Positions 58,051-62,138 of a stretch of 64,000 nucleotides of DNA are shown here, piece by piece. Position numbers and translations under genes: made by a program. Source of the stretch: Flavobacteriaceae bacterium MAR_2010_188 (GTDB taxonomy: Bacteria; Bacteroidota; Bacteroidia; Flavobacteriales; Flavobacteriaceae); assembly GCA_900104375.1 (NCBI GenBank), contig LT629302.1, positions 2,940,001 to 3,004,000 on the forward strand. The letters are read 5' to 3'. The notes beneath the pieces were generated by a model. That model was not told the origin of the DNA. It searched no databases and saw nothing but the letters and a program-made list of their open reading frames with translations. Every line of letters starts with the position of its first letter. Within the stretch, counting starts at the first letter, position 1.

Positions 58051-58917
58051 ATGGCATCAGAAAACAAGGATAAAAAATTCACCAAAAAACTACTTCACAA
58101 GTACCGTTTAGTTATATTAAACGAAGATACTTTTGAAGAACGATTTGCGATTAAATTAACGAGACTCAACGTTTTTGTTATTCTTTCCTTAGGGTCTATT
58201 TTACTTGTTGCTGGAACAATTGTCCTTATTGCATTTACTTCATTAAAGGAATACATTCCTGGATATGCCTCATCGTCATTAAGAAAACAGGCCACAGAAT
58301 TAGATTTTAAAACCGATTCACTTCAAAAAGTAATCGATGATAACGACCAGTATTATGCATCGATTAAGAGAGTATTGTCTGGTGATGTTCAAACCGCGAA
58401 ACTCAACAAAGATTCGATATTAAATGCCGCAAAGAACGATGTTTCAGAATTAAATTTGAAGCCTACAAAAGAAGATTCGGTTTTGCGGGAACTGGTTGAT
58501 AAAGAAGATAAATACAATTTGTTCGATTCTGCTACGTCATCTTCAACTTTTGTGCTTTTTCCGCCCGTAAATGGTTCAATTTCTGATGCATACAATGTGA
58601 AAGAAAACCACTATGCCGTAGATGTAGTTGTAAAAGAGGAAACGCCGGTTAAGTCGACGGCAGACGGTACGGTGATTTTTGCTGAATGGACGGCTGATAC
58701 AGGTTATGTTATAATCATTGAACATAGTTACGAACTAATTTCAGTGTATAAGCACAATTCATCTTTAACAAAAGAACAAGGAGAATTAGTAAAGGCGGGA
58801 GAAGTTATTGCCATGACCGGAAACACGGGAGAACTCACTTCAGGACCACATTTACATTTTGAACTTTGGAAAGCAGGTTACCCCGTAGACCCAACCAATT
58901 TTATCGACTTTAATTAA
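58051..58917 (+). CDS. M23-family peptidase, membrane-anchored
   Basis: A 288-residue cell-wall endopeptidase of the LytM type. One membrane helix (about 42-64) anchors it, with the catalytic domain in the periplasm. Zinc ligands: His187 and Asp191 (HYAVD), and His267/His269 in GPHLHFE. A coiled-coil-like region (about 75-150) precedes the domain. It cleaves peptide cross-links or activates other hydrolases. The stop overlaps the GH3 gene start by one base (TAATG). Confidence 0.93.
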   Translation: MASENKDKKFTKKLLHKYRLVILNEDTFEERFAIKLTRLNVFVILSLGSILLVAGTIVLIAFTSLKEYIPGYASSSLRKQATELDFKTDSLQKVIDDNDQYYASIKRVLSGDVQTAKLNKDSILNAAKNDVSELNLKPTKEDSVLRELVDKEDKYNLFDSATSSSTFVLFPPVNGSISDAYNVKENHYAVDVVVKEETPVKSTADGTVIFAEWTADTGYVIIIEHSYELISVYKHNSSLTKEQGELVKAGEVIAMTGNTGELTSGPHLHFELWKAGYPVDPTNFIDFN

Positions 58918-60419
58918 TGGCAACTATAAAAGCGATACTAGCAAAAGGATTTGCCAAATACATAAAATGGCAAACCGATAAATGGTCCAGAAATCCATAT
59001 TCTACACAGCAAAAAGTTTTTAAATCCTTGATTGATTCAGCGAGGGAGACAGAATTTGGCAAATATCACAACTTTGATTCGATATTAAACTATCAGGATT
59101 TTGTAGCAAGTGTTCCCGTTAGAGATTACGAGGATTTAAAACCTTATATAGAAAAGGCGGTTAATGGCGAGTCGGATATTCTTTGGAAAGGCAAGCCCGC
59201 CTATTTTGCAAAAACTTCGGGGACTACCTCTGGGGCAAAATATATTCCCATTACTAAAGAGAGTATGCCTGCACATACCAATGCTGCGAGAAATGCTATC
59301 CTCTTATATATCGCGGAAACCGGTAATTCAGATTTTGTGGACGGTAAAATGATTTTTCTACAAGGCAGTCCAGAACTTGAAGAAAAAAACGGAATAAAAT
59401 TCGGCCGATTATCGGGTATTGTGGCTCACTACGTTCCCAAATATTTACAAAAAAACCGAATGCCGTCTTGGGAAACCAATTGTATAAAGGACTGGGAAAC
59501 TAAGGTAGACGCTATCGTTGAAGAAACCATTAACGAAAACATGAGCGTCATTTCCGGAATTCCATCTTGGGTACAGATGTACTTCGAAAAAATAAGACAA
59601 AAAAGAGGCAAACCGGTAGGAGAAGTTTTTAAAAATTTTAATCTTTTTATCTATGGCGGAGTTAATTACGAACCTTATCGCGCTAAGTTTGAAAACCTTA
59701 TAGGACGAAAAGTAGATAGCATTGAACTATATCCTGCGAGCGAGGGATTTTTCGCCTTTCAGGACAGGCAGGGAGCAAAAGATATGTTGCTATTGTTAGA
59801 TTCAGGTATTTTCTATGAATTTATTAAAGCTGAAGAATTTTTTGATGAAAACCCGCTTAGGCTTACCGTTGAAGAAGTTGAAATCGGGGTTAATTATGTG
59901 ATGATTGTTTCGACAAACGCCGGACTTTGGGCGTATAATGTTGGAGATACCATTCAATTTACAACCTTAAAACCGCACCGTGTTATCGTTACCGGAAGGA
60001 TTAAGCATTTTATTTCGGCCTTTGGGGAGCACGTTATCGGCAAAGAGGTAGAGCAGGCGTTAAGAGATGCAAGCCAGAAATATAGTGTGCTGATTTCAGA
60101 ATTTTCCGTTGCACCACAAATCAATCCTGATTCTGGTTTACCGTATCATGAATGGTTTATAGAATTTGAAAGGGAACCACAGAATTTCTTAGAATTTTCA
60201 AGTTATATCGATCAATCTATGCAAGAGCAAAATAAATATTACTACGATCTTATTTCGGGTAACATTTTAAAGCCTTTAGTCGTAACTCGGGTTAAGAAAA
60301 ATGGCTTTCAGGAATATATGAAGTCAATCGGAAAATTAGGAGCGCAGAACAAAATACCTAGATTATCCAATGACCGTGGGCTTGCATCGAAGCTAGAGGA
60401 GTTTAATCTAACATATTAA
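58917..60419 (+). CDS. GH3 auxin-responsive promoter family protein (acyl-acid-amido synthetase fold)
   Basis: A 500-residue adenylate-forming enzyme of the GH3 superfamily. The P-loop-like ATP motif KTSGTTSGAKYIPIT (about 100-114) and the later YPASEGFFAFQD (motif II-type) and VGDTIQF segments are conserved. In plants GH3 enzymes conjugate amino acids to acids; bacterial members activate unknown carboxylates. It is translationally coupled to the M23 peptidase gene (one-base overlap), an arrangement seen in other Bacteroidota, hinting at a cell-envelope substrate; this is inference. Confidence 0.88.
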   Translation: MATIKAILAKGFAKYIKWQTDKWSRNPYSTQQKVFKSLIDSARETEFGKYHNFDSILNYQDFVASVPVRDYEDLKPYIEKAVNGESDILWKGKPAYFAKTSGTTSGAKYIPITKESMPAHTNAARNAILLYIAETGNSDFVDGKMIFLQGSPELEEKNGIKFGRLSGIVAHYVPKYLQKNRMPSWETNCIKDWETKVDAIVEETINENMSVISGIPSWVQMYFEKIRQKRGKPVGEVFKNFNLFIYGGVNYEPYRAKFENLIGRKVDSIELYPASEGFFAFQDRQGAKDMLLLLDSGIFYEFIKAEEFFDENPLRLTVEEVEIGVNYVMIVSTNAGLWAYNVGDTIQFTTLKPHRVIVTGRIKHFISAFGEHVIGKEVEQALRDASQKYSVLISEFSVAPQINPDSGLPYHEWFIEFEREPQNFLEFSSYIDQSMQEQNKYYYDLISGNILKPLVVTRVKKNGFQEYMKSIGKLGAQNKIPRLSNDRGLASKLEEFNLTY

Positions 60420-60446: not shown

Positions 60447-62138
60447 ATGAGTAACAGCAAAAAGCAAGGTAGAACGAGAGCTCAAGAAAGCTCCAATGCA
60501 ATCGAAAGAATGTATATTACCATGCGCCATTTATTCAACCGTGGTTTCTACAAGCCTATGGGCGTTTCTGGAGAGACTTTAAGGGAATCCTTATTGTTAT
60601 TAAGACCAGAAATTTACGGTTCAATATCAGAAGAAAAAGCAGAGTTAGAAGGACTTCTATACGTAATCGATAGATTGCCAGAGGGAATCGAAGAGTGTAC
60701 CTTTATAAACCTAACTAGCGACGAAGGCTATAAAAATTCACATTTTACTCCAATAATTCCGCCTAAAAGAAGAAGAAACTGTTATCGGATAGATGAAGAA
60801 CAGATGAATATTGAAATCACCCGCGGTAGATCCGAGATTTACGATATTCTAACCCATATCACCTTTTTATTCGTTGAGTCCCATAAGATTAGTAAGCGCG
60901 TATTAATTGATGAACAAGGCACTACTACTAGAGATTGGCTTAAGTTAGAGATCGCGGTTACCAAAGATAATAAGTTGACCCAAAAAGAGCGAGAAATCGC
61001 CATTACCCATACTGCAAATATCTTGGGAAGAACGTTTGAAGAATTGACGGCTGCCCACAATAAATTTACCACAAAGGCCAAGCCAGATAGACTTTTGCAT
61101 ATCATTTACTGGCTAGGTAAACTTGCTATTGAAGAGGTCATAAATAACAATAAAAGGACGGTAACATTTAGCCCAGTATTAAGAGAAAGACTTGGCCACC
61201 ATATTCACGGAGAGATTTGGGCAGATCATATTAAAGGCATCTTGAACAAAAATGAATTATTGGAAAGGCCAATTCATATTATCAGTGCTAATATGCATAG
61301 TGTCATGAATACGATCTATGCAAACAAAGCTCTGAAAAAATTTGCCGCAAAAAAGGACCAGTTTGAGATTTATGAAGCCCTAAGCAATAGAGAGAACCAG
61401 TCTCTAAGGGATAAAGTTTTTAAAGAGGCCGAACTGAATGGTATGATATACATTCCAGATTCTTCTGGAACTAACATAGACGTACAGATATTTGACACAT
61501 CGAAAATAGATATTACAGAGTTTTTGGGAGATAAAAAGCCTAAAGATTCAACATCTATTAAACCGATTATATTTGTCATGGATTATGCGTTTGGAGAGCA
61601 AGCTTATGAAACTATTGATGAGCTCTTTAAACCATTTAAGGTGAATGAAAAAAAGGTTCACTTAAACGTTAAGTCTGTTTCAATAATGGGTAAAGCAGGA
61701 ATATTAGAAGGAGGAAAGGGAGATATTATGATTCCTTCCGCTCACATCTTTGAAGGTACCGCAGACAATTATCCATTTAAAAACGAATTGAGTAAGAAGG
61801 ACTTAGTGAATCAGGGAGTAGATGTTTATGAAGGGTCAATGATTACTGTTTTAGGAACATCGCTTCAAAATAAGGAAATACTTAAGTTCTTTTATAATTC
61901 AACCTGGAATGTTATTGGGCTGGAAATGGAAGGTGCGCACTACCAAAAAGCAATACAGGCGGCATCTAAGGTTAGAGGAAGTATAAACCGCGATGTTAAG
62001 GTAAGATATGCCTATTACGCAAGTGATAATCCCTTAGAAACCGGAAGCACCTTGGCATCGGGAGGATTGGGTACATCTGGCGTAAAACCGACCTACATTA
62101 TAACAAAAGAAATTTTGAGACAGATATTTAATTCATAA
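60447..62138 (+). CDS. DUF6909-like protein with nucleosidase-like C-terminal motifs
   Basis: A 563-residue cytoplasmic protein. I recall the family as DUF6909, a Bacteroidota-centred group of unknown function. The N-terminal part is helical (about 10-310). The C-terminal part (about 370-555) has KAGILEGGKGDIMIPSA (416-431), TVLGTSLQNKEILKFF and GLEMEGAHY (491-499), followed by a DNPLETGSTLASGG loop. The order G-AG-L, GD-VP and then MEG/ME-S resembles purine-nucleoside phosphorylase and AMP-nucleosidase folds. It has its own -7 box and is followed 4 bp later by a Wzz-like gene. Confidence 0.75.
   Translation: MSNSKKQGRTRAQESSNAIERMYITMRHLFNRGFYKPMGVSGETLRESLLLLRPEIYGSISEEKAELEGLLYVIDRLPEGIEECTFINLTSDEGYKNSHFTPIIPPKRRRNCYRIDEEQMNIEITRGRSEIYDILTHITFLFVESHKISKRVLIDEQGTTTRDWLKLEIAVTKDNKLTQKEREIAITHTANILGRTFEELTAAHNKFTTKAKPDRLLHIIYWLGKLAIEEVINNNKRTVTFSPVLRERLGHHIHGEIWADHIKGILNKNELLERPIHIISANMHSVMNTIYANKALKKFAAKKDQFEIYEALSNRENQSLRDKVFKEAELNGMIYIPDSSGTNIDVQIFDTSKIDITEFLGDKKPKDSTSIKPIIFVMDYAFGEQAYETIDELFKPFKVNEKKVHLNVKSVSIMGKAGILEGGKGDIMIPSAHIFEGTADNYPFKNELSKKDLVNQGVDVYEGSMITVLGTSLQNKEILKFFYNSTWNVIGLEMEGAHYQKAIQAASKVRGSINRDVKVRYAYYASDNPLETGSTLASGGLGTSGVKPTYIITKEILRQIFNS

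Follow-up and report, generated by a model that had tools for sequence, protein, structure and literature searches.

The open reading frame at positions 60447 to 62138 on the forward strand of the window, by which we mean the whole 64,000-nucleotide stretch of Flavobacteriaceae bacterium MAR_2010_188 analyzed here, runs from ATG to stop and encodes a protein of 563 amino acids. It is a real gene of the Pfam family DUF6909 (PF21850), which it matches with 219.2 bits at a cut-off of 27, and a preliminary description of this DNA had thus been right to call its product a DUF6909-like protein. The window's genome carries a single copy (one place, at which the gene was hit in two neighboring segments), while near relatives were found at no fewer than 80 loci of species genomes (at least 80, with 72–84% identity to the window's protein) and on two Persicobacter plasmids (58–60% identity). 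We reduced 119 distinct full-length homologues to 63 representatives at 85% identity and aligned 54 of them, leaving out nine near ones; all 54 match PF21850, and they share long invariant blocks at identities to the window's protein as low as 54%. A literature search found no paper naming DUF6909 or PF21850, and no match was present among 50,697 phage records. The PADLOC models of anti-phage defense gave no match to the protein at E ≤ 1, and a role in such defense was therefore dropped. Irregular copies were seen at two other places. At L003:11299-11990, past an rfbB-like piece on the minus strand, the contig terminates in two DUF6909-like pieces of that same strand, which are either an artefact of assembly or an incomplete inverted duplicate of the gene, and in the 3.4 Mb genome G532 (contig C2) equal-scoring copies lie far apart on one contig at 5922-6668 and 3406290-3407036, perhaps due to an overlapping circular assembly.

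Directly upstream in the window, positions 58917-60419 hold a gene of the GH3 family that reaches 391.8 bits with the NCBIfam model of the lyso-ornithine lipid synthetase OlsH (cut-off 620) and perhaps encodes a related synthetase. Among 80 near relatives, a GH3 gene ends less than 400 bases upstream of DUF6909 in 76, and a gene for an M23 peptidase lies within 2.5 kb upstream in 79. Neither neighbor was detected (phmmer, 1e-4) at nine DUF6909 loci from other families, nor were M23 or GH3 genes found next to nine loci of the AMN-like family discussed below. Since these neighbors are missing from the nine distant loci, the neighborhood gives no functional hint; with neighbors that are not kept in distant families and a presence in 170 of 199 genomes of its own family, DUF6909 has the character of a housekeeping gene.

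An AlphaFold2 model of the protein built with 78 aligned sequences (mean pLDDT 80.1, pTM 0.62) was compared to known structures with Foldseek and VIA. All 50 Foldseek matches listed are enzymes of the NP-I superfamily (purine nucleoside phosphorylase [PNP], uridine or MTA phosphorylase, MTAN, futalosine hydrolase, and AMP nucleosidase), with a best E-value of 1.4e-6 and the AMP nucleosidase (Amn) structure 2guw at rank 4. The top VIA row has a Z-score of 18.6 and an rmsd of 3.3 Å over 232 residues, covering residues 250-563 of the model. The 50 VIA rows shown are tied at Z 17.6–18.6 and comprise PNP, uridine/MTA phosphorylases, MTAN, and futalosine hydrolase; Amn is absent from these rows though Foldseek lists it. 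As far as the predicted model goes, the fold comparison singles out no NP-I subfamily, but it makes DUF6909 almost certainly a genuine family of the NP-I (PNP/UDP) fold, so that the PNP-like fold surmised in the preliminary description holds. With PNP, uridine phosphorylase, and MTAN (PF01048) it shares the complete predicted fold, an ME motif, and the Asp of an SD motif, yet it is much larger, and the Pfam model PNP_UDP_1 (PF01048) reaches only 13.0 bits (E 0.069) against a cut-off of 25.1, aligning residues 405-498 to profile positions 67-178. The same model matches 32 of the 54 alignment members at E ≤ 1 (best 0.0015). Our placement of DUF6909 in the NP-I superfamily is therefore based on the predicted fold and the catalytic residues and not on the PF01048 score.

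The layout of the protein needed to be redrawn. A PNP-like domain had been placed at residues 370-563, which would cut off its first strand (residues 276-281 in the model); by the VIA range it extends over about residues 250-563 (positions 61194..62138 including the stop codon, forward strand like all features below). The part in front of it therefore has about 249 residues instead of the approximately 310 proposed, and the model shows strands as well as helices where a helical domain had been expected. Within the PNP-like domain, residues 297-372 (61335..61562) are a poorly conserved stretch with a mean majority of 0.53. The two motifs that had initially drawn attention, residues 416-431 (KAGILEGGKGDIMIPS) and 491-499 (GLEMEGAHY), are present as described and follow the order of PNP in the PNP_UDP_1 alignment; both sit in stretches of invariant DUF6909 columns and are therefore not chance features.

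The N-terminal domain (residues 1-249; 60447..61193) is conserved and of mixed alpha/beta structure. Folded alone as residues 9-250, it reached a pLDDT of 81.2 and a pTM of 0.78. This model gave no Foldseek match at E < 0.001, its best VIA Z-score of 5.4 (to uridine phosphorylases) is too low to mean anything, and Amn chains are not among the VIA or Foldseek rows shown for it. Amn of E. coli and Klebsiella pneumoniae (EC 3.2.2.4) resembles DUF6909 in combining an N-terminal domain with a C-terminal NP-I domain, and a strand–helix likeness around an “ITR” motif, noticed by eye, had suggested that the two N-terminal domains could correspond. This idea was tested and is not supported: The Amn N-domain model PF10423 matched none of 149 class genomes at E ≤ 0.001, the window's own included, and an hhalign comparison of the two domains scored 14.7, which lies in the range of permuted controls (mean 13.9, sd 2.9). 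The ITR register chosen by eye ranked 23rd of 32984 at width 24. Proteins of about 400 amino acids from other classes of the phylum (loci L212-L215 and L219) are Amn proteins with a shortened N-terminal domain that, by eye, show AQPK or AKPR in place of the ITRP of E. coli; they score 145–162 bits with the AMN-like model TIGR01721, under its cut-off.

The architecture of the Amn active site provides a frame for reading the catalytic domain. According to a study of K. pneumoniae Amn (PMC9584410), the base and sugar are contacted by Asn205, Trp383, Met404, Glu405, and Asp428, and the phosphate by Arg381 and Lys436 together with two residues from the apposed chain, His188 and Tyr189; a weakly resolved but conserved lid loop covers the site, and among distant homologues of known structure only Met404, Glu405, and Asp428 are described there as conserved. 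E. coli Amn carries these site residues at the same numbers. When 17 Amn and AMN-like sequences were aligned by MAFFT with the catalytic domains of 12 DUF6909 proteins, and the registers read in 8 of the 29 rows, the motifs GK[AC]G, GD, EGT..Y, ME, and SDxP fell in register without guidance. This likeness extends to the AMN-like family (TIGR01721), in which GKCGG, GDxxLP, EGTSxDY, DMET, and SDQPM stand opposite GKAGI, GDIMIP, EGTADNY, EMEG, and SDNPL of DUF6909. The AMN-like proteins are shorter (about 258 amino acids in the class), and DUF6909 differs from them by approximately 249 extra N-terminal residues and the poorly conserved stretch 297-372 as well as by lacking a match to their profile and the Arg and Trp of their substrate site.

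Read along the protein, this alignment gives DUF6909 counterparts for several Amn residues. Met494 and Glu495 in GLEMEG (491-496; 61917..61934) correspond to Met404 and Glu405, the ribose and base contacts, and Asp527 in SDNPL (526-530; 62022..62036) to the catalytic Asp428. All three are invariant in the 54 aligned sequences, so that, as far as alignments can show, the catalytic residues of a PNP-like enzyme are present. Equally invariant is Asn282 in the first strand and its loop (276-288; 61272..61310), the probable counterpart of Asn205 as judged from a motif register (rank 69 of 74235 window pairs of width 12 with AMN-like sequences) and not from MAFFT, which did not place Asn282 there. 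Residues 412-429 (61680..61733), which hold the first of the two motifs singled out initially, comprise the GK[AC]G loop and GDIMI and include Lys416; of the 17 Amn and AMN-like sequences, 16 carry the equivalent Lys, that of GKCGG, and E. coli Amn has His. EGTADNY (436-442; 61752..61772) is shared with the EGTSxDY of AMN-like proteins, and MDYAFGEQAYE (378-388; 61578..61610) stands opposite Amn's GxGxxNA loop in the alignment. Since Glu384 falls in this loop, at a position that is Ser in 16 of the 17 Amn and AMN-like sequences, we dropped a reading of Glu384 as the counterpart of MTAN Glu12.

Other Amn contacts are not conserved. At the place of Amn Arg381 and Trp383, invariant in all 17 aligned Amn and AMN-like sequences, DUF6909 has VLGTSLQN (468-475; 61848..61871) with Thr471 and Leu473 in 54 of 54 sequences, and Lys436 has no clear counterpart, with a Gly/Ser/Thr-rich loop near that place. 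This loop (533-542; 62043..62072) belongs to the highly conserved segment after Asp527, has pLDDT values below 50 at residues 537-541, and by analogy to the lid described in PMC9584410 may be a flexible lid over the 5'-phosphate. His251-His252 (61197..61202; conserved in 50 and 54 of 54 sequences, respectively) may correspond to Amn His188-Tyr189, a proposal suggested by position. With substrate contacts replaced and a large conserved extra domain, DUF6909 could in principle be a regulatory or structural protein that binds nucleotides by an NP-I fold but is no enzyme. We consider this very unlikely because Glu495 and Asp527 are invariant throughout, which would be unusual for a dead enzyme, and because DUF6909 and an enzyme family exclude each other across genomes (see below).

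An NP-I fold is also shared by enzymes that act on nucleosides, and DUF6909 might accordingly be a nucleoside phosphorylase or a nucleosidase of the MTA/SAH type. In MTAN, the catalytic Glu12 lies where the first strand ends, and E. coli PNP binds phosphate with Arg24 and Arg87. If Asn282 is placed correctly, the DUF6909 loop SANMHS presumably occupies the place of PNP Arg24 and MTAN Glu12; this loop contains no Glu, and no Arg is found in either SANMHS or SIMGKAG by motif alignment. The arginine sites of the phosphorylases are accordingly not seen at this level of comparison, which would speak against such an enzyme if the placement is right.

Quantitative sequence comparisons favor the Amn sets at one motif and do not set them apart at others. 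In ungapped profile windows of width 16 against AMN-like sequences (72059 pairs), the GK register ranks 1st, EGT 3rd, SDNPL 32nd, LEMEG 79th, and Asn282 191st, all five within the top 0.3%; at width 24 (67803 pairs) the ranks are 21 for GK, 153 for EGT, 61 for SDNPL, 365 for LEMEG, and 300 for Asn282. Because the registers were chosen from the alignment and by reading, the ranks are a description of the likeness and not a test of it. For GK, ME, and SD, respectively, the ranks are 347, 6, and 20 of 140231 with E. coli-type Amn, 3, 1, and 645 of 64883 with MTAN, 20, 9, and 464 of 66976 with DeoD, and 15, 5, and 15112 of 71162 with Udp. The GK and ME registers thus do not separate Amn from other NP-I sets, and they even count against an Amn-like enzyme in that GK ranks lower with E. 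coli-type Amn than with MTAN or DeoD and ME ranks higher with MTAN and DeoD than with AMN-like sequences. The good scores of the GSxG and ME registers with DeoD and MTAN agree with a nucleoside enzyme just as the common fold and the tied VIA rows of several subfamilies do. The SD motif, at ranks 20 and 32 with the Amn sets compared to 464, 645, and 15112 elsewhere, favors the former and fits MTAN, DeoD, and Udp poorly.

Profile methods and sequence searches tied DUF6909 to no known subfamily. No NCBIfam model of AMP nucleosidase was among the matches of the 54 DUF6909 members at E ≤ 10, a threshold at which the HMMER filters drop most matches above 0.1, and phmmer and the A1 profile found only chance matches among PDB sequences. 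When the catalytic domain was compared by HHalign to sets of Amn, MTAN, DeoD, Udp, and PNP-II sequences, local probabilities were 0.3–6.4%, with global ones lower still, none significant, and PNP-II scored as well (25.65) as AMN-like (24.46); nine full-length Amn proteins reached 0.7–1.2%. When a DUF6909 HMM was run against subfamily sequences, PNP-II came first with 8.2 bits, followed by AMN-like with 6.2 and E. coli Amn last with -1.8, and although none of these scores is significant, the order is another point for a nucleoside enzyme. In the opposite direction, subfamily HMMs were scored on the 54 DUF6909 domains, and the null was the top score among 1134 domains that had been shuffled or reversed. 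The best real score exceeded the best null score for AMN-like (9.7 vs 3.6) and DeoD (7.6 vs 4.2), equaled it closely for PNP-II (5.0 vs 4.9), and stayed below it for MTAN (4.1 vs 9.8) and Udp (3.4 vs 8.3).

The genomic context of other NP-I enzymes further lowers the standing of a nucleoside substrate. The window's genome already holds PNP-II and Udp-like enzymes, and among 26 relatives searched, with enzymes assigned by best phmmer score, four DUF6909-positive ones carry an MTAN-like (G511) or a DeoD-like enzyme (G515, G516, and G522). We therefore regard a nucleoside phosphorylase or MTA/SAH-type nucleosidase as improbable.

A functional clue comes from the distribution of DUF6909 relative to the AMN-like family, which we sought in the same three genome samples covering the phylum, the class, and the family of the window. 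AMN-like proteins probably split AMP, judging from the name of their family and their resemblance to E. coli Amn, which phmmer picks up at nine loci with E-values of about 1e-30 to 1e-34. In the phylum sample, DUF6909 is present in 43 of 296 genomes, all of them in the window's class, while TIGR01721 matches 129 at E ≤ 0.001. Nine of these, with best matches weaker than 1e-10, were set aside, five of which are DUF6909-positive (G029, G103, G198, G226, and G245); the matching frames of these five have 233–259 amino acids and were taken as probable other NP-I enzymes. Of the 120 strong matches, 47 pass the curated cut-off of the family, and many of those under it are longer Amn proteins of other classes. 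No genome has both DUF6909 and a strong AMN-like match (Fisher p 2e-11). The same complete exclusion was found for the class sample (247 genomes, 16 with DUF6909 and 171 with AMN-like proteins at E ≤ 1e-20, 167 of the latter above the cut-off; p 1.9e-9) and, as read by eye from listings, for the family sample (199 genomes, 170 and 8, respectively; p 8e-8). These p-values overstate the evidence because the genomes are related and the three samples overlap, so that they are not independent tests. With at least four DUF6909-positive genomes among the 26 relatives examined holding another NP-I enzyme of the MTAN or DeoD type, and PNP-II and Udp-like enzymes in the window's own, the exclusion seems specific to AMN-like proteins.

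This pattern might reflect lineage history alone and say nothing about function, given that genomes are not independent and that DUF6909 occurs mainly in the window's family (170/199) while AMN-like proteins prevail elsewhere in the class (171/247). What makes us judge this reading unlikely is that both states occur within five families (f5 and f8 in the phylum sample, f51 and f95 in the class sample, and f1 in the family sample), and DUF6909 and AMN-like proteins were never seen together there. Sixty of the 247 class genomes carry neither gene, from which it follows that the function is dispensable, is done otherwise, or was missed in incomplete genomes.

The record of adenine phosphoribosyltransferase (Apt) speaks against AMP cleavage rather than for it. 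The window's genome, scored as 99.98% complete, has no clear Apt and shows only a partial match of 20 bits. Across the class sample, Apt was found at E ≤ 1e-20 in 8 of the 16 DUF6909-positive genomes, 120 of the 171 AMN-like-positive ones (p 0.16 between the two), and 39 of the remaining 60, which indicates that neither gene is generally accompanied by Apt as a route to recover adenine. DUF6909 could instead be a nucleotide N-glycosidase with another substrate, such as IMP, GMP, a deoxynucleotide, or a modified or signaling nucleotide, that merely occurs in lineages without AMN-like proteins. The absence of a detected Apt from half of the DUF6909-positive class genomes, including the window's own, would agree with this, as would the systematic replacement of Arg381 and Trp383, the phosphate and base contacts of Amn. 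A free-standing function of this kind would not predict the complete non-overlap with AMN-like proteins in three samples and five mixed families, however, and we see in it a minor possibility. A literature search on AMP nucleosidase in Bacteroidetes, Bacteroides, or Flavobacteri, or in connection with the stringent response, showed nothing relevant among the records listed.

On balance, we favor DUF6909 being an NP-I-fold nucleotide N-glycosidase that replaces AMP nucleosidase and cleaves AMP or a close 5'-nucleotide into its base and ribose 5-phosphate, most likely by the reaction AMP + H2O → adenine + ribose 5-phosphate. Support for the putative nucleotide hydrolysis is indirect, coming from the non-overlap with AMN-like proteins, whose distribution is complementary, and from the motifs shared with them. 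Compared to the Amn site described in PMC9584410, DUF6909 has equivalents of Met404, Glu405, and Asp428, a probable one of Asn205, and a conserved flexible segment after the catalytic Asp, while Arg381, Trp383, and Lys436 are not conserved. That the reaction is hydrolysis rather than phosphorolysis and that AMP is the substrate are inferences, as are all phosphate contacts, the oligomer, and the role of the N-terminal domain. Glu495 together with Met494 would hold the ribose, Asn282 and Lys416 would form walls of the pocket for sugar and base, and Asp527 would protonate the leaving purine while water attacks C1'. The 5'-phosphate would lie under the Gly/Ser/Thr lid (533-542), which would hold it together with His251/His252 of a neighboring subunit, and the N-terminal domain (1-249) would complete or regulate the active site.

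Because the sequence model of the AMP nucleosidase family does not match DUF6909 and Arg381 and Trp383 are replaced, we do not file it as a member of that family; our best single guess is that it works like AMP nucleosidase all the same. A more far-reaching version, which we regard as doubtful, is that DUF6909 forms a separate class of nucleotide N-glycosidases that took over the role of AMP nucleosidase in several lineages of the class with rebuilt sites. The 5'-phosphate and base sites would then consist of Thr and Leu for Arg and Trp, the Gly/Ser/Thr lid, and Lys and His ligands, and the N-terminal domain, perhaps a decayed PNP-like unit, would form part of the active site or sense a nucleotide signal.

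AMN-like proteins are missing from 191 of the 199 sampled Flavobacteriaceae genomes, and 170 of the 199 carry DUF6909. Our proposal links this widespread family to the AMN-like gap through a reaction that can be tested, and even if AMP turned out to be the wrong substrate, DUF6909 would still be a conserved protein of the NP-I type. If the proposal is true, it would name a function for a gene present in most of the Flavobacteriaceae, point to repeated gene replacement in purine metabolism, and provide an example of an NP-I enzyme with a rebuilt phosphate site.
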